DNA from: Natrialbaceae archaeon AArc-T1-2
GTDB lineage: Archaea; Halobacteriota; Halobacteria; Halobacteriales; Natrialbaceae
Assembly: GCF_030273315.1 (NCBI RefSeq)
Contig: NZ_CP127174.1
Span: 1,550,001 to 1,614,000 of the forward strand
Length of the DNA stretch: 64,000 nt
Direction of reading: 5' to 3'
The notes under the pieces are model-generated. The model saw only the letters and a list, made by a program, of their open reading frames with translations. It searched no databases and was not told where the DNA came from. Below, one piece after another: positions 42,469 through 50,945 of the stretch. The position numbers and the translations under genes are program-made. The stretch's first letter is position 1. Each line of letters begins with the position of its first letter.

Positions 42469-43503
42469 TTAGTCGTCTCCGTCGGGCGTCGGCGCTGTGT
42501 TCGGATCGCCGACGTCGGCCGACTGGACGGCCTGATAGAGGATGATCAGCGCGACGAAAAACGACGAGCCGACGAGCAGGAGGACGCTCACGATCTCGAG
42601 GCCGTCCGTGCCGATCCAGTCGGCGGCCTCGCTGATGGCGATCCCGACGCTTGCAAGTAGCATCATGATGCCGAAGTAGACGATGACGTCGTCTTCTTCG
42701 ACGATGGCCGTGGCGGCCGAGCCGATGCGAGCGCCGAGTGCACTCCCGACGAGCAACAGCCCGACGACCGCGAGGTCGACGCTACCCTGCATGCCGTAGG
42801 TGAACGCACCGAACGCACCCGAGAACAGCCCGGCGAAGAGGCTGGTCCCGACTGCGGCAGTAAGCGGCGTCCCGATCAGGTAGTAGATCGCCGGCATCCG
42901 GATGAATCCGCCGCCGACGCCGATCAGTCCCGAGACGAGGCCGACACCCCCGCCGGCACCCGTGACCGTCCACAGCGACGTCCGGCCGCCGGAGACGAGC
43001 GAGATCATCGGCGGAATTCGGTACGACTGGATCTTCTGAGCGATCGGCGGAATCTCGTCGTCGTCGACGTCCTCGTCCCCGTCGTCAGCGTCGTCCTCGT
43101 CGTCGAGGGCGTATGCACGCCGGAGGAACAGCAAGCCGATGCCTGCAAGCAGGACGATGTAGGCTCCGCCAGTGACGAGTTCGGCGATCCCTAGTGCCTC
43201 GAGGGCGAAGACGAGCCGACTGCCGAGTTCGATCCCGATCGAGAGGACGACGAACAACGCTGCGCCGAGTTTGTAATCGACCTGGCCGACGTCGTAGTGT
43301 TTCATCACGGCGATGACCGACGTCCCGAAGTAAAACGCCAGCCCGCTCCCGATGGCGACGGAGGCGGGGTAGCCGAGGATCAACAGCGTCGGCGTGATCA
43401 GGAACGAACCCCCCATTCCGAAGAATCCGAACAGTACTCCGACCATGAAGCCGAAGACGACGAACAACACCAGCAACGACAGGCCGAGTCCGAGCAGTTC
43501 CAT
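42469..43503 (-). CDS. TauE/SafE-family sulfite/organosulfonate exporter
   Basis: A 344-residue permease with about eight helices in two halves. The first half has GFFGMGGSFLITPTLLILGYP and the second VSGLIGVGGGFIRMPAIYYLIG, the typical duplicated glycine-rich motifs. The loop between the halves carries an acidic run at about residues 133-153 (DEDDADDGDEDVDDDE), a halophile addition. The family exports sulfite and related anions. It starts 3 bases after the DUF7512 gene stop and follows the rhodanese-MBL gene, so sulfite removal is the likely role. Confidence 0.85.
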   Translation of the reverse strand: MELLGLGLSLLVLFVVFGFMVGVLFGFFGMGGSFLITPTLLILGYPASVAIGSGLAFYFGTSVIAVMKHYDVGQVDYKLGAALFVVLSIGIELGSRLVFALEALGIAELVTGGAYIVLLAGIGLLFLRRAYALDDEDDADDGDEDVDDDEIPPIAQKIQSYRIPPMISLVSGGRTSLWTVTGAGGGVGLVSGLIGVGGGFIRMPAIYYLIGTPLTAAVGTSLFAGLFSGAFGAFTYGMQGSVDLAVVGLLLVGSALGARIGSAATAIVEEDDVIVYFGIMMLLASVGIAISEAADWIGTDGLEIVSVLLLVGSSFFVALIILYQAVQSADVGDPNTAPTPDGDD

Positions 43504-43684: not shown

Positions 43685-44857
43685 TTAGTCGTCAGCGACG
43701 GCGCTGTCTTCGGTCGCCGCACACCGGTTTGGACCGAGCTCGAGTTCGTTGCGCTCGTCTTCGTCCGCGGGCTCGTAGACGCCGAGGTTGGTCTCGATGA
43801 CCTTCTCGTAGTTCGGCGGCTTGGAGGGCAGGTTGTCGAACATGTGCTCGACGAACTCGTCCTCGTCGAGCTGGATGATCTCGTTTTTCGCCCAGATCTC
43901 GCCGACGGTCGAGAACATCGGCATGCCGGGTTCGACGTCGATGTACTCGCCGCAGTTGGTCAGCGAGAAGTGCCCGGGGAGGATCTTGACGTGGTCGGGC
44001 ATCGTGGCGATCTTGTGCTGGAGCGTCTCGTACTGGACGCGAGCGCCGGCTTTCGCGTCCTCGCCGGCGAACTGGAGTTCGGTGCGGCCGATCGACTCGA
44101 CGAACAGCGTGTCGCCGGTCATCAGGGCCTCGTCCTCGACGAGGTAAGAGGTCATGCCAGTCGTGTGGCCCGGCGTGTGAACGGCCTTGATGGCGACGTC
44201 GCCGACCATCACCGTCTCGTTGGGCTCGAGGCCGTCGAAGTCGTAGTTGGGGTCACGCGTGTTCGCGGGCTCGCCGAGGTGGTAGGGGACCTCGTACTCG
44301 TCGGCGAGGTCGCGACCCGCGGAGATGTGGTCGGCGTGGATGTGGGTGTCGAAGACCCGGTCAATCTCGTAGCCGCGGTCGGCTGCAGCCTGCTCGAAGG
44401 CGTCGGTCGCGCGGGTGACGTCGACGAGTGCCGCTTTACCGGTTCGTTTCGATCCGACGAGATACCCGAGACAGCCCTTCGAGCGGCGCTGGAGCTGGAG
44501 AATCTCGAGGCCGTCGCGCTCGGTCGCAATCGAGACGACGTCGTAAACGAGACTCCAGTCTTCCATCCCGCCCTCGACGCGGGCGACGTTCTCGAAGTCC
44601 TCGTCCTCGAGGTACTCGGCGAACGCTTCTGCAGAGCAACCGGTCGCACACGTGACGACGATCTCGTCGTCGGCGTCGTACGCCTCGGGGTCGAACTCAC
44701 CGACGAGTTCGTCGTTCGACGCCGAGTACTCGACGTTCTCGGCTTCGGCGATGCGCCAGTCTTCGTAGTCCTCCGGTGCTCGGGTGTCGAAGAGGACGTC
44801 GACATCGTCCGCCTCGATACGATCGCGTAGTTCGGCTGCTGAAATCGTCTCGACCAT
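43685..44857 (-). CDS. Rhodanese - metallo-beta-lactamase fusion (persulfide dioxygenase-like)
   Basis: A 390-residue fusion. Residues 1-105 are a rhodanese domain with its active Cys in VTCATGCSAEAF and EGGMEDWSLVYDV after it. From ~120 a metallo-beta-lactamase fold follows: the metal motif THIHADHISAGRDLA near residue 171, the HTPGHTTGMTSYLV strand, and LMTGDTLFVESIGRTEL. This is the ETHE1/CstB type, which oxidises persulfides to sulfite with O2. The rhodanese is N-terminal, whereas many bacterial fusions carry it C-terminally. CTTAAG at 44884-44889 is a plausible TATA box. Confidence 0.85.
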   Translation of the reverse strand: MVETISAAELRDRIEADDVDVLFDTRAPEDYEDWRIAEAENVEYSASNDELVGEFDPEAYDADDEIVVTCATGCSAEAFAEYLEDEDFENVARVEGGMEDWSLVYDVVSIATERDGLEILQLQRRSKGCLGYLVGSKRTGKAALVDVTRATDAFEQAAADRGYEIDRVFDTHIHADHISAGRDLADEYEVPYHLGEPANTRDPNYDFDGLEPNETVMVGDVAIKAVHTPGHTTGMTSYLVEDEALMTGDTLFVESIGRTELQFAGEDAKAGARVQYETLQHKIATMPDHVKILPGHFSLTNCGEYIDVEPGMPMFSTVGEIWAKNEIIQLDEDEFVEHMFDNLPSKPPNYEKVIETNLGVYEPADEDERNELELGPNRCAATEDSAVADD

Positions 44858-46099: not shown

Positions 46100-46780
46100 C
46101 TAGATGTCCTTGAGCGTGAACCACCAGTCGTAGGAGTCGTACTCCTCCTCGTCGACCTCTTCGAGTCGCTGTTCGGCTTCCTCGACCGTTCCAGGCGGCG
46201 AGAGCAACGCCTTGTCGCCGAAGTTTTCGTTCTCGGGCCAGTCGGCCGGCAGGGCGACGTCTTCTTCCTCGTGGGTCTGCAACGCCTCGAGCGAGCGCAG
46301 GACCTCGTCGATGTTGCGGCCGATCTCTTTGGGGTAGTAAAGCACCTGGCGTGTGATACCCTCGTCGTCGACGATGAAGACCGCACGAACCGTCGACGTT
46401 CCCTGGCCGGGGTGGACCATACCGAGCTCCTCGGCGACGGTACCGCTCTCGTCGGCGATGATCGGGAATCCGATCTCCTCGTCGAGTTCGTCGTCGATCC
46501 AGTCGGTCCACTTGATGTGTGAGTGGACGCGGTCGACCGAGAGGCCGATCAGTTCGGTGTTGCGTTCGGCGAACTCCTCACGGCGCTGTTCGAAGCCGAC
46601 GAACTCGGTCGTACAGACCGGCGTGAAGTCACCGGGATGGCTAAAGAGGACGAACCACTCGCCCTCGTAGTCGTCCGGGATCGTCTTCGTTCCGTGGGTC
46701 GTCTCTACCTCGAGCTGTGGGAATTCGTCGCCGATGAGCGGGAATCCGTTCGCTCCGTCGTCGTCAGTCTCTGCGGACAT
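46100..46780 (-). CDS. Peroxiredoxin, Prx6-type
   Basis: A 226-residue thiol peroxidase reducing H2O2 and alkyl peroxides. The peroxidatic Cys sits in FSHPGDFTPVCTTEF near residue 55, with the catalytic Arg in the STVRAVFIVDDEG block. The long C-terminal part (DVALPADWPENENFGDKALL) is typical of the 1-Cys/Prx6 type, which often has no resolving Cys partner. TCATTATG at 46803-46810 gives a leaderless start. It lies inside the sulfur cluster, where persulfides and peroxides could both be substrates. Confidence 0.92.
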   Translation of the reverse strand: MSAETDDDGANGFPLIGDEFPQLEVETTHGTKTIPDDYEGEWFVLFSHPGDFTPVCTTEFVGFEQRREEFAERNTELIGLSVDRVHSHIKWTDWIDDELDEEIGFPIIADESGTVAEELGMVHPGQGTSTVRAVFIVDDEGITRQVLYYPKEIGRNIDEVLRSLEALQTHEEEDVALPADWPENENFGDKALLSPPGTVEEAEQRLEEVDEEEYDSYDWWFTLKDI

Positions 46781-46810: not shown

Positions 46811-47036
46811 TTGACCTTTCGAAAAGAGAAGTTTTCGTAGCCTGTGGTTATTCTACACTTATCTCGAAATATTTTCGCATCAATGGAGTCGTGGCATGGC
46901 TACGGGTAGCAGGCGAAGCGACGACGTAGCCGTGACTGCTCGGAAATGGACAGGACAACGATGCGCTCGAGAGACGACCCCGCTCGCTCGGCGATCGTCG
47001 AAAACACAGGTACCCGACTTCGGTCGTCGAATGCAG

Positions 47037-47882
47037 TCAGTTCGACCGCGAGGACCCCATCCGCCGGAGGAACTCGATCAGGATGCCGAGGCCTTGCCTG
47101 ACGTCGTCGTCACGAAGCGCGCCGAGCATCCCGAAGAGACCGACTTTCTTCGGCGGCTGCTCCTCGGTGAACGCACCGAGGCCGGCCTCGACTGAGTCGA
47201 TGAGCTGTTCATCACCCAGCTTACTGCCCAGCACGAGCATGTTACCGAGGTTCTGCCCGAGCTGGTAGGGCTCGAGGTCGGCCTCGCCGTAGGCGTGGCT
47301 CATGCCGGCGACCATCATTCGCAACTCCGTGATCGGCTGTCTATTCTCCTGAACGACGCTTATGGCCTCCGGGATCAGGTCCTCGGCGAGCTCGTAGGTC
47401 ACGTCGAGCAACTCGAGCAGCTCGATCAGCGTCTCTTCGTTCTCGCCGAGCCGTTCGAGCAAGACGAGCGTCTCCTCGCGCTCGAGGGCGAACCGGAGCC
47501 GTTCGATCGTCTCGCGGTTCTCGCGAACGATCGTCTTGACCTCTGGCACCAGATCGCCGACGAGTTCGTCGACGACTTCGAGGGTCTCTAAGAGCTCGAC
47601 GAGCGTATCGGCGTTCTCGCCGACGCGCTGGACGAGTACGAGCGTCTCCTCGCGCTCGAGAGCCATGCGCAGCTCTGCGACCGGCTCGCGGGACTCGTGG
47701 GCTGCCTCGCGCAGCTCGGGCGCGAGATCCTCCGAAAGCTCCTGGACGACGACGAGCAACTCGAGTAACTCGGCGAGCTCCTCGTCGTTCTCCTCGAGCG
47801 TGCGGGCGAGCTCGTTTACTTCGGCGGCCTCGAAGCCGGTGCCGTCGAAGTCGCTGTCTACCGATTGGTCTTTCTGAGCCAT
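47037..47882 (-). CDS. DUF1641 protein with three tandem 58-residue repeats
   Basis: A 281-residue protein, MAQKDQSVDSDFDG. Residues 28-85, 86-143 and 144-193 are repeats of one 58-residue unit (E-L-L-E-x-L/V, E-L-x-x-D-L-x-P-E, E-x-R-x-x-I/V-x-x-L-R), and units 1 and 2 share the exact run ALEREETLVL. The last ~90 residues hold the DUF1641 region (YQLGQNLGNMLVLGSKLGDE, GILIEFLRRMGS). It starts 3 bases after the flavoprotein stop, so the two are co-translated. Bacterial DUF1641 proteins also accompany oxidoreductases. It may form the docking or membrane-contact partner of the reductase; that is inference. Confidence 0.75.
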   Translation of the reverse strand: MAQKDQSVDSDFDGTGFEAAEVNELARTLEENDEELAELLELLVVVQELSEDLAPELREAAHESREPVAELRMALEREETLVLVQRVGENADTLVELLETLEVVDELVGDLVPEVKTIVRENRETIERLRFALEREETLVLLERLGENEETLIELLELLDVTYELAEDLIPEAISVVQENRQPITELRMMVAGMSHAYGEADLEPYQLGQNLGNMLVLGSKLGDEQLIDSVEAGLGAFTEEQPPKKVGLFGMLGALRDDDVRQGLGILIEFLRRMGSSRSN

Positions 47883-47885
47883 TGG

Positions 47886-49058
47886 TTACGGAAGCGGGTC
47901 GTAGCCTTTCATCCAGGCGTCCCAGTAGACCGACGGGAGGACGTTGACGTCCATGATCCAGTTCATCTTGCTCTCGACGGGTGCGGAGATCGAGTTCTCG
48001 TAATCGAACTCCGCGATCAGTGCCTTGCCTTTCTCGGTGAGCAACGGACAGGCGGCGTAGCCGTCGTACTCCTTTGGCATCGGTCGGCCGTTCATCACCG
48101 CCGGCAGGTTGTTCGCGACGACGTGAGCCTGCTTGCGAGCGGCCGCGGCCGTCTTCGAGTGGGGTGCGTTCTCACAGTCACCCAGCGCGAAGACGTTGTC
48201 GTACTCGTCGTGCTGACAGGTGTGTTTGTCGATCGTGACGTACTCGCCGTCGTCCGAACCCTCAGTCAGCGGCGAGTTGTCGGTGATCGGCTCCTGGCCG
48301 AACTGCGGCGTCACTGGCGCGTAGAGATCGTAGGAAATCTCCTCGCCGTCGGCCGAACGGACGACACCGGCGTCGGGATCGATCTCCTCGACGGAGAAGT
48401 TCTCTTCGAACTTGATGTCGCGATCGTTCCAGATCTCATAGAGCTTGTCGCGGTAGGGCTGGACGCCGAAGTGGTGTTCGGCGTTTCTGGTCATGATGAC
48501 CTCGACGTCGTCGCGGATGCCCTGCCGGCGGAAGTAGTCCTCGGCGAGCATCGTCAGCTTCAGCGGCGCGCCGGGACACTTAATCGGCGTGTTGGGCTGG
48601 GTAACGAGGAAGGTCCCACCGTCGAAGTCCTCGAGAGCTTCACCCAGCTCGAGGGCGGCTTCGTAGTGGTAGAACGGGAAGACCTCGTCCGTTTCCTGCC
48701 AGGCCTCGAGCAGGCCGGGTGTGGCGGTCGGGTCGAGTCGGTGGCCCGTCGCGACGACGAGGTAGTCGTACTCGAGGTCCTCACCCGCCTCGAGCGCGAC
48801 GGTCTGTTCGTCGGGGTCTACGCCCGTCACCGCGTCATGGACAAACTCGACGCCCGGTTTGAGCAGTTCGTCGACGTCCCGTGACTGGTCGGGCTCGAGG
48901 TACCCGAACGGGATGAGGTAAAACGACGGCTGGTAGAAGTGTTCGGTACTCTTATCGACGACGACGACCTCCGCCTCGTCACTGTCTAGCTTTCGCCGGA
49001 GGAGGTTCGCCGTCATCGCACCGCCGGAACCTGCCCCCAGTACGGCTATCGTATCCAT
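47886..49058 (-). CDS. FAD-dependent oxidoreductase of sulfide:quinone reductase type
   Basis: A 390-residue flavoprotein. TIAVLGAGSGGAMTANLLRRKL is the FAD-binding GxGxxG loop, LVVATGHRLDP the second motif, and NVFALGDCENAPHSKTAAAA the third. Cys residues in KCPGAPLKL near residue 162 and in YAACPLLTEKGK near residue 334 match the redox Cys pair of sulfide:quinone reductases. It would oxidise sulfide to persulfide or polysulfide and pass electrons to the quinone pool. The DUF1641 gene follows directly. NDH-2-like use cannot be ruled out, but the Cys pair favours sulfide. Confidence 0.8.
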   Translation of the reverse strand: MDTIAVLGAGSGGAMTANLLRRKLDSDEAEVVVVDKSTEHFYQPSFYLIPFGYLEPDQSRDVDELLKPGVEFVHDAVTGVDPDEQTVALEAGEDLEYDYLVVATGHRLDPTATPGLLEAWQETDEVFPFYHYEAALELGEALEDFDGGTFLVTQPNTPIKCPGAPLKLTMLAEDYFRRQGIRDDVEVIMTRNAEHHFGVQPYRDKLYEIWNDRDIKFEENFSVEEIDPDAGVVRSADGEEISYDLYAPVTPQFGQEPITDNSPLTEGSDDGEYVTIDKHTCQHDEYDNVFALGDCENAPHSKTAAAARKQAHVVANNLPAVMNGRPMPKEYDGYAACPLLTEKGKALIAEFDYENSISAPVESKMNWIMDVNVLPSVYWDAWMKGYDPLP

Positions 49059-49181
49059 ATGCGGCTAAATATTGCAGCGTCTCCCATCTAAACGCACGTC
49101 TTTGAGAAACAATTGTATGCAGAGGTCTGCCACGACGAGAAAGCGGAAAATGTTGCTCGATCGTGCTAACGCGTGGACGTA

Positions 49182-50291
49182 TCAGTTCCCCGTATCGGAT
49201 TCGACCGGTGCGTCGATCAGGTTCCCCCACTCGATCCAGGAGCCGTCGTAGTTCGCGACGGCGTCGTACTCGAGCAGCTCCGAGAGAATGAACCAGACGA
49301 TCGAGGACCGCTCTCCGATGTGACAGTAGACGATCGTCTCCGTCCCGGGGTGGACGTCGCGGTCGTGAAACAGCTGTTCGAGCTCGGCCCGATCCTTGAA
49401 CCGTCCGTTCTCGTCGATGACGTCCGACCACATGAGGTGAGCGGTACCGGGGATGCGACCCGCCGATCGGGCTTCCGGCAGGTCCTTGTCGGGCGGTCGT
49501 GCTTGATCGCCGCGAAACTCCGAGGACGAACGCACGTCGACGATCCTCACGTCGCGCGCGATGGCCGCCTCGACGTCCGTTCGGTACGCACGGATCCGAT
49601 CGTCGGACGGATGCGCGCTGTACTCTCGGGGCGTAACCTCGGGCGCGTCGGTCGTCATCGGACGGTCGGATCGTTCCCAGTGTGTCTTCCCACCGTCGAG
49701 CAACCGTACGTCGGTGTGACGGTAGTACTTGAACAGCCAGTAGAGATACGCCGCGTACTGATTGTGGCCGGTACTGTAGATCACGACCGTGCTGTCGACC
49801 GTGATGCCGCGGTCGCCGACGCAGGTTTCGAAGGTCTGACAGTCGGCGATTCCACAGCCGTTGACGTCGACGAGTTCTTCGAGCACGTCGATCTGGACGG
49901 CACCCGGCAGGTGTCCCCGCTCGTACTCCTCGTCGCTGTCGGCTTCGACGAGTCGCAGGTCCGGGTCGTCCGCCTCGAACTCCGAGAGCCGGCTCTCGAC
50001 CCACTCGGGCGACACCACCACGGTCTGTTCGTCGTCGGTCGGCTCCGACCCGTCGGGGCCGTGTTTCAGCCTGTAACAGGTCTGTCGACCGTCGTGAAGC
50101 GCGGGCGAGGAGTCGATGAGATCGGCCTCCTCGAGTTGATCGAGTCCGTACCGGGCGGTCCGGGAGGAAAGCAGCGTCGTCTCGGTCAACCCCTTGAGCG
50201 TCATCGATCCCTCGTCCGCCAGGGTCTTGTAGATGAACTTCGAACTCGGGGGAAGGTCCTCGAGTGCGTCGTCGACGTTTTGATCCGGCAT
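49182..50291 (-). CDS. Winged-helix - tandem rhodanese fusion
   Basis: A 369-residue fusion. Residues ~1-80 form a winged helix (SSKFIYKTLADEGSMTLKGL, then SRTARYGLDQLEEADLIDSS). Two rhodanese domains follow, together a thiosulfate-sulfurtransferase. The first (WVESRLSEFEADDPDLRLVE) has STGHNQ at its loop with no Cys, so it is non-catalytic as usual. The second has the active loop IVYCHIGERSS with the catalytic Cys. It may bind DNA and sense persulfide. It lies 123 bases upstream of the flavoprotein gene on the same strand and could regulate it. No promoter is clear. Confidence 0.8.
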   Translation of the reverse strand: MPDQNVDDALEDLPPSSKFIYKTLADEGSMTLKGLTETTLLSSRTARYGLDQLEEADLIDSSPALHDGRQTCYRLKHGPDGSEPTDDEQTVVVSPEWVESRLSEFEADDPDLRLVEADSDEEYERGHLPGAVQIDVLEELVDVNGCGIADCQTFETCVGDRGITVDSTVVIYSTGHNQYAAYLYWLFKYYRHTDVRLLDGGKTHWERSDRPMTTDAPEVTPREYSAHPSDDRIRAYRTDVEAAIARDVRIVDVRSSSEFRGDQARPPDKDLPEARSAGRIPGTAHLMWSDVIDENGRFKDRAELEQLFHDRDVHPGTETIVYCHIGERSSIVWFILSELLEYDAVANYDGSWIEWGNLIDAPVESDTGN

Positions 50292-50945
50292 GATCCTTGG
50301 GCTATACTAGCCCTCGTTAATATACAGGTCTTTCGCCATCACACCGTATGCTCGAGATGAAGTCGGGAGATTACGGGTTTGCGGGATGGCCGAGCCGATC
50401 TCCGGGCAGTATCCGCACGGAAGGAGCAATAATTACTCGCTATCACACACATATATCTGTGATCTTTCTGCTCGATACAAGCAATATTGTGTGGTAACAG
50501 TCGATGGGGGACGATCATGTTTGGAAACTAATGAGATCGGTCTGAAGGCGCTGGGGACTCTCCATTAATATCGTAATTAATATAGTACTCAAATACCACC
50601 ATGCAGAATATATAATACGAATAGTGACATACAAATACACATCAGCCCGTTTAGAAAAACGATCTGGTGATATTTCAATAAATACTGGAAATATGGGTGA
50701 AATAAACACTATACTGCCGTTCTCCACACATATCACTCGGCAGCCCTCTACACTGAGATGGCCTAAGATAACTCAGCTGGTGTAATATATCTCTGTATAT
50801 AAAGAATATGTACTTCTTCTCTATATATAGATAATAGAAGAATATATAACTCCCGATATAACAGTCCGACGCTCGACTCTGGCGGTCTCCTCGCAGTGAT
50901 CGGAGAGTCGAAGAGAACTTACTCTCACCTTCCGCATCACGGGCT
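50292..50945. other. 654-base AT-rich gap
   Basis: No supported gene. From about 50560 to 50870 the sequence is strikingly AT-rich for this genome, with repeated AGAATATATA-like words (near 50604 and 50838) and a perfect 7-bp inverted repeat TTCTTCT (50814-50820) / AGAAGAA (50836-50842). A 73-codon minus-strand frame here has no family resemblance. It may be foreign DNA, a remnant element, or a regulatory and bending region. Confidence 0.55.
50916..50923 (+). promoter_or_regulatory. TATA box for panE
   Basis: AACTTACT is centred 26-27 bases before the ATG at 50946. Confidence 0.45.

Follow-up and report, generated by a model that had tools for sequence, protein, structure and literature searches.

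In this study, we describe a gene that joins a winged-helix domain to a complete tandem rhodanese and whose product we regard, with a probability of roughly 0.6, as a locally acting regulator of transcription, probably an activator, in which the rhodanese part senses sulfane sulfur. The gene resides in a 64-kb stretch of haloarchaeal DNA, hereafter called the window, directly upstream of a gene for a sulfide:quinone oxidoreductase (SQR). That the protein binds DNA and regulates the sulfide cluster, as had been suspected from the window alone, is strongly supported by comparative evidence, namely a conserved winged helix, a near-perfect co-occurrence with SQR, and predicted palindromic sites that are locked in position within the promoters of the cluster. 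The persulfide switch itself appears plausible from the protein sequences.

The open reading frame was confirmed where the original prediction had placed it (49182-50291, minus strand; Table 1), and so was its position as the first gene upstream of the SQR gene on the same strand, with a gap of 123 bp between the two. Since the full-length form is present in dozens of genomes from several families, the fusion is real and no artefact of assembly or annotation. The AF2 model of the full fusion, based on 35 family sequences, has a mean pLDDT of 85. Within the fusion family, mean pairwise identity amounts to 71% for the winged helix, which is hence the best conserved part, to 57% and 63% for the two rhodanese domains and to 23% for the linker between the domains, which is, judged by this figure, free to vary.

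The N-terminal winged helix was borne out both by the AF2 models, with helices at residues 15-27, 32-39 and 43-55 and a two-strand wing at 59-63/71-75, and by family-wide matches to MarR_2. The recognition helix, on whose presence in a structure model the original prediction had made itself depend, is the helix at 43-55, and the hypothesis thus survived this check; the same elements were obtained when residues 1-85 were modelled alone (AF2, pLDDT 87). In the alignment of the winged helix, MarR_2 was matched by 28/28 members and MarR by 26 (E <= 0.05, best 5e-9), and TrmB (PF01978) produced weak matches in 13 of the 28 domain homologues (best 2.3e-4) and none in the window protein. Taken singly, the window protein stays below the curated Pfam cut-offs of HTH_20 (18.1 bits, cut-off 27) and MarR (PF01047; 17.5-21.0 bits, cut-off 24.6). 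Comparison of the winged-helix model with solved structures returned MarR and ArsR-type regulators (Z 9.7-11.4) and singled out no one family. With MarR below its cut-off and TrmB weak, we did not file the domain as MarR.

The prediction of a tandem rhodanese held as well. PF00581 matched the window protein in two stretches (E 1.9e-26), phmmer retrieved thiosulfate sulfurtransferases (down to 2.7e-64) across residues 90-364, and in structure the enzyme part matches thiosulfate sulfurtransferases of mycobacteria and Thermus, the closest solved structure being 3aay (VIA-align Z 37.2, rmsd 1.6, 274 residues). By these matches, the fold is that of a tandem-domain thiosulfate/3-mercaptopyruvate sulfurtransferase with two rhodanese domains and the cysteine loop in the second, and sulfurtransferase activity is predicted. 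The single catalytic cysteine that had been pointed out, Cys323, is invariant in 35/35 fusions. A further cysteine, absent from the original prediction, lies in the second wing strand: Cys72 is found in 33/35 fusions versus 0/21 unfused winged-helix homologues, in which the position is mostly occupied by Leu, Val or Ile. One divergent fusion (L178:304-1386, genome G011) carries its cysteine two residues earlier, in a wing reading GRCSFY, and the palindrome in its SQR promoter is much weaker; a co-evolution of domain and operator is possible in this case. The first rhodanese half holds no cysteine that is conserved throughout the 35 fusions, and Cys146, Cys151 and Cys157 were ruled out as family sensors, as 146 is kept in 16/35 and 151 and 157 in one. 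Directly behind the catalytic cysteine, 13/13 unfused relatives from haloarchaea carry an Arg (CRxGERS), whereas this Arg is replaced in all fusions, by His, Asn or, once, Gly (C(H/N)xGERS). From our point of view, Cys72, the altered loop and the pattern of conservation would be more in keeping with a sensor than with a housekeeping enzyme.

Table 1. Genes, protein parts and predicted control elements of the sulfide-oxidation region, in window positions; distances in brackets refer to the start of the gene downstream.
Feature	Position	Strand	Basis or remark
TauE/SafE sulfite exporter gene	42469..43503	-	after the MBL-rhodanese gene
Rhodanese + metallo-beta-lactamase (MBL) protein gene	43685..44857	-	probable persulfide dioxygenase
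1-Cys-type peroxiredoxin gene	46100..46780	-	
Predicted operator upstream of peroxiredoxin gene	46861..46881		centre 46871
DUF1641 protein gene	47037..47882	-	conserved SQR partner
SQR gene	47886..49058	-	closest solved structure human SQOR, 8.7e-66
SQR core promoter	49086..49104	-	BRE-like CAAAGACG 49097-49104; TATA-like GTTTAGAT 49086-49093; by sequence reading
Predicted operator, proximal SQR site	49101..49121		centre 49111 (-53); abuts BRE
Predicted operator, distal SQR site	49141..49161		centre 49151 (-93)
Winged helix + tandem rhodanese fusion gene, 369 aa	49182..50291	-	ORF, Pfam, phmmer, AF2
Second rhodanese domain, residues 235-365	49197..49589	-	catalytic loop C323-H-I-G-E-R-S
Catalytic Cys323 codon, invariant	49323..49325	-	family alignment
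First rhodanese domain (non-catalytic), residues 91-220	49632..50021	-	Pfam, phmmer, fold match
Winged-helix domain, residues 10-76	50064..50264	-	AF2 models, Pfam
Wing, residues 59-75	50067-50117	-	AF2
Wing Cys72 codon	50076..50078	-	family alignment
Recognition helix, residues 43-55	50127-50165	-	AF2
Predicted operator upstream of fusion gene	50421..50441		centre 50431 (-140)
Predicted operator upstream of fusion gene	50476..50496		centre 50486 (-195)

The genes around the fusion form a sulfide-oxidation module. The window SQR scores 317 bits against the NCBIfam type III SQR model and thus stays below the cut-off of 525; human SQOR converts sulfide into persulfides. The MBL-rhodanese protein is closest to 3r2u, which we take to be the staphylococcal MBL protein CstB, and to 3tp9, in line with a persulfide dioxygenase. 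Across 40 fusion loci, SQR, DUF1641 and MBL-rhodanese genes were each found in 36 and a peroxiredoxin gene in about 30, and besides the fusion no gene family with a DNA-binding domain was common to most of them. The DUF1641 gene adjoins SQR in nearly all these clusters. A divergent arrangement of MBL-rhodanese gene and fusion, with start codons 213-274 bp apart, prevails outside the Natrialbaceae ortholog clade and is seen in a few loci of this clade, and there the fusion is followed by the SQR-DUF1641-peroxiredoxin genes behind a promoter gap of their own. Up to 17 loci encode, in the vicinity of the module, a protein that by eye resembles cytochrome bd oxidase subunit II (in L144, for example, some 4.8-5.8 kb upstream of the fusion), and it is possible that it represents a sulfide-resistant terminal oxidase for the electrons from SQR.

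Full-length relatives of the fusion share 66-75% identity in other Natrialbaceae and 51-56% in a second clade from other haloarchaeal families. Since an unfused tandem rhodanese (about 48% identity) exists in most haloarchaeal genomes, the fusion has to be seen as a special form. Among 243 Halobacteriales genomes, the fusion was found in 18, SQR in 19 and both in 18, which corresponds to a Fisher p of 2.7e-26 with no correction for common descent or for joint transfer of the whole cluster. The SQR of the sole SQR genome without fusion (G052) shows only 56% identity. The co-occurrence may simply stem from the genes being transferred together. The fusion is plasmid-borne in Natronorubrum bangense, Natronosalvus and Salarchaeum.

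When 102 non-redundant promoters of four module genes were compared by motif discovery, a strong dyad, AATA-N-TTTC, emerged in 30 sequences versus 0.25 expected, and it resolves to the 21-bp palindrome TAnnnGMAATWATTKCnnnTA. Since circularity had to be avoided, the SQR promoters were left out and the matrix was trained on the other promoters; 27/31 SQR promoters scored above the 99th percentile of dinucleotide shuffles. Measured against a local 99th-percentile null, the site centre lies at -92/-93 in 28/31 SQR promoters and a second site at -52 in 21/31, and the 40-42 bp between the two equal four helical turns. Of the 36 MBL-rhodanese promoters, 20 have the motif at -51 to -53 and 17 at -102 to -106, and the fusion gene's own sites vary in their distance to the start and hold no fixed position. 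In the SQR promoter of the window, the core of the proximal palindrome spans -58 to -48, the BRE-like element -46 to -39 and the TATA-like element -35 to -28. With a matrix that included the window promoters among its about 100 training promoters, the five top matches in the 64 kb were centred at 49151, 50486, 46871, 50431 and 49111, all of them before the SQR, fusion and peroxiredoxin genes. Two stretches had been suggested for a test of DNA binding, of which 49059-49181 indeed contains two predicted operators (49151 and 49111), whereas 50292-50400 holds the core promoter of the fusion only, with the predicted sites located beyond it, at 50431 and 50486. Near the operator, a second palindrome, TTAC-N12-GTAA, was noted in 9 non-redundant promoters versus 0.08 expected; it precedes the fusion gene in members of the Natrialbaceae ortholog clade (e.g., L142, L143, L148) and is perhaps a site for another regulator.

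A search for the exact consensus in the genome of the window returned five places, two of which (16.5 and 14.2 bits) are strong operator-like sites flanking a pair of genes for a sulfite-oxidase-like molybdopterin enzyme and a halocyanin (C1:2346667-2348640; L234, L238). Two further genomes with the fusion have the upstream site of this pair at about the same distance (11.0 bits in either), and the fusion-lacking genome G140 does not have it; the pair is a possible distant target of the regulator. In the same genome, a PF04143 sulfur-transport gene is oriented divergently to four consecutive tandem rhodaneses, of which at least the first has a Tat/lipoprotein-like signal (C1:1096446-1103000; L233, L004, L006-L008), with GAAATAATTTC lying in between; this could be a thiosulfate-handling locus. 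The motif site between the transport gene and the secreted rhodanese reaches 10.0 bits, which is within the chance range, and was rejected as a target and kept as a lead only. Lastly, the genome encodes a second winged-helix-rhodanese fusion that is unlinked to SQR (C1:1115370-1116443; L139:7344-8468), with Leu at the position of the wing cysteine and the loop CHVGWRS, and perhaps with a different signal. The motif is absent upstream of this and of another unlinked fusion copy (L154).

We infer DNA binding at the palindromes, dimerisation, sulfur sensing, persulfidation, a relay to Cys72 and the sign of regulation, and envisage their interplay as follows. A dimer of the winged helix would bind the 21-bp palindrome, present in two helically phased copies directly upstream of the SQR BRE/TATA, as well as similarly placed palindromes at the MBL-rhodanese (persulfide-dioxygenase-like) and peroxiredoxin genes, and the tandem rhodanese would act as the sensor. 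SQR would turn sulfide into sulfane sulfur in the form of persulfide or polysulfide, which Cys323 would take up and thereby become persulfidated; this state could be relayed to Cys72 or end in a Cys72-Cys323 or Cys72-Cys72' bond. DNA binding would be altered as a result, such that SQR, MBL-rhodanese and peroxiredoxin would be transcribed when the rhodanese is loaded with sulfur. The narrower proposal of a sulfur relay onto DNA within one protein, by which sulfane sulfur from SQR passes from Cys323 to the wing Cys72 and switches the activator on, is put forward tentatively, as possible rather than probable.

Other readings of the same data can be imagined, and two of them, repression and a primarily catalytic role, overlap with ours in that they share its DNA-binding part. 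One that does not would assign the palindromes to another regulator, for example an unfused winged-helix protein, and leave the winged helix of the fusion for dimerisation or protein contacts only. Unfused winged-helix homologues are indeed present in nearly every genome searched, and in a genome-wide count the 11-bp core GMAATWATTKC is about equally frequent in fusion-bearing and fusion-lacking genomes and exceeds a reversed-pattern control in both, so that other proteins may use the core. However, the sites are absent from the SQR homologues without linked fusion (L227, L230, L231 and L232, i.e., the SQR homologue of one fusion-lacking genome and three extra SQR copies), no further regulator is conserved in the clusters, and the HTH core of the fusion is the 71%-identical part of the protein. 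In genome G049, SQR lies 108 kb away from the fusion and has kept both sites. The unfused winged-helix loci are mostly devoid of the motif as well, with a strong site in just 2/21, which also leaves unsupported the idea that the whole domain family binds it. We consider this reading quite improbable. Matrix scores of 10-12.5 occur in about one third of 3.9-kb control loci, and as the core is not specific genome-wide, the evidence for our regulator consists of position and context and not of genome-wide uniqueness.

The strongest rival is repression, given that BigR and SqrR act as repressors. The same protein would then block TFB/TBP from the BRE-proximal site and be released upon persulfidation of the rhodanese or Cys72, in analogy to BigR and SqrR, its functional analogues, which are released by reactive sulfur (PMC5823870). 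The proximal site abutting the BRE would suit such a role, but both sites lie upstream of BRE/TATA, neither covers TATA or the start, and two helically phased sites resemble an upstream activating region. In archaea, sites 5' of BRE/TATA are associated with activation and sites 3' of them with repression (PMC4158304), a division that holds for the repressors and activators reviewed there and for OxsR (PMC9426492), and it is this location that makes us favour an activator over a repressor, which appears somewhat unlikely. The protein could also be a trigger enzyme, that is, a working rhodanese of the pathway with catalysis as its main role and a winged helix that serves as a moonlighting autoregulator or as an anchor to the locus. 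An invariant Cys323 in a catalytic fold and the other sulfur-transfer enzymes of the module would agree with this, yet most of these genomes already possess a tandem rhodanese from this family in unfused form, the Arg beside the catalytic cysteine is lost from every fusion, and the DNA-binding domain is better conserved than the enzyme; we judge a chiefly catalytic role unlikely.

Bacteria are already known to have persulfide-sensing regulators, and haloarchaea to have winged-helix factors that act as thiol switches. Like BigR and SqrR, the fusion is a probable winged-helix regulator that adjoins genes for SQR, a probable persulfide dioxygenase and a sulfite exporter and for which a cysteine sulfur switch is proposed, so that the linkage typical of these regulators to at least one of such genes is found at the fusion locus too. 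The fold comparison of the winged helix returned SqrR (6o8k, Z 9.8) along with many MarR and ArsR proteins. BigR and SqrR are, however, small repressors that consist of one domain holding two cysteines, whereas in the fusion a whole tandem rhodanese follows the N-terminal winged helix, only one cysteine of the winged helix, Cys72 in the wing, is conserved instead of two switch cysteines, and the predicted sites suggest activation. OxsR of Haloferax volcanii, a single winged-helix, TrmB-family thiol switch that has one functional cysteine and activates from sites 5' of BRE/TATA (PMC9426492), resembles the fusion as a haloarchaeal winged-helix factor with one cysteine and sites at this location, but differs in its lack of an enzyme domain, the placement of Cys24 at a helix interface, a CG-rich motif and hypochlorite as signal. 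The tandem rhodaneses Mtb CysA2/CysA3 and that of T. thermophilus share fold, length, catalytic cysteine and GERS loop with the fusion but have no DNA-binding domain, and the Mtb CysA2 loop reads CRxGERS instead of C(H/N)xGERS. The CstR-CstA-CstB-SQR operon of Staphylococcus, with its sulfur-responsive control of SQR and an MBL-rhodanese, can be likened to the present module, although CstR is an all-helical CsoR-type protein without fused enzyme. Bacterial ArsR-rhodanese fusions such as Rv0324, which combine an HTH with a rhodanese domain, exist as annotations and differ from the fusion in their single rhodanese domain, ArsR HTH and bacterial origin. The open-access literature yielded no paper on these single-domain fusions and no description of an archaeal winged-helix/rhodanese fusion, of a regulator whose sensor domain is a complete tandem sulfurtransferase, or of an archaeal regulator of sulfide oxidation with a predicted operator.

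Overall, to our knowledge the persulfide sensors investigated to date are bacterial repressors of small size, which react with reactive sulfur directly through cysteines of their own, and we know of no earlier archaeal persulfide-responsive regulator, such that the fusion would be the first if the relay holds true. The switch could be tested with two point mutations. If it proves correct, a complete sulfurtransferase would serve as the receptor and would show how the active site of an enzyme can become a signalling device, and the haloarchaeal oxidation of sulfide would gain a predicted regulon together with its operator.
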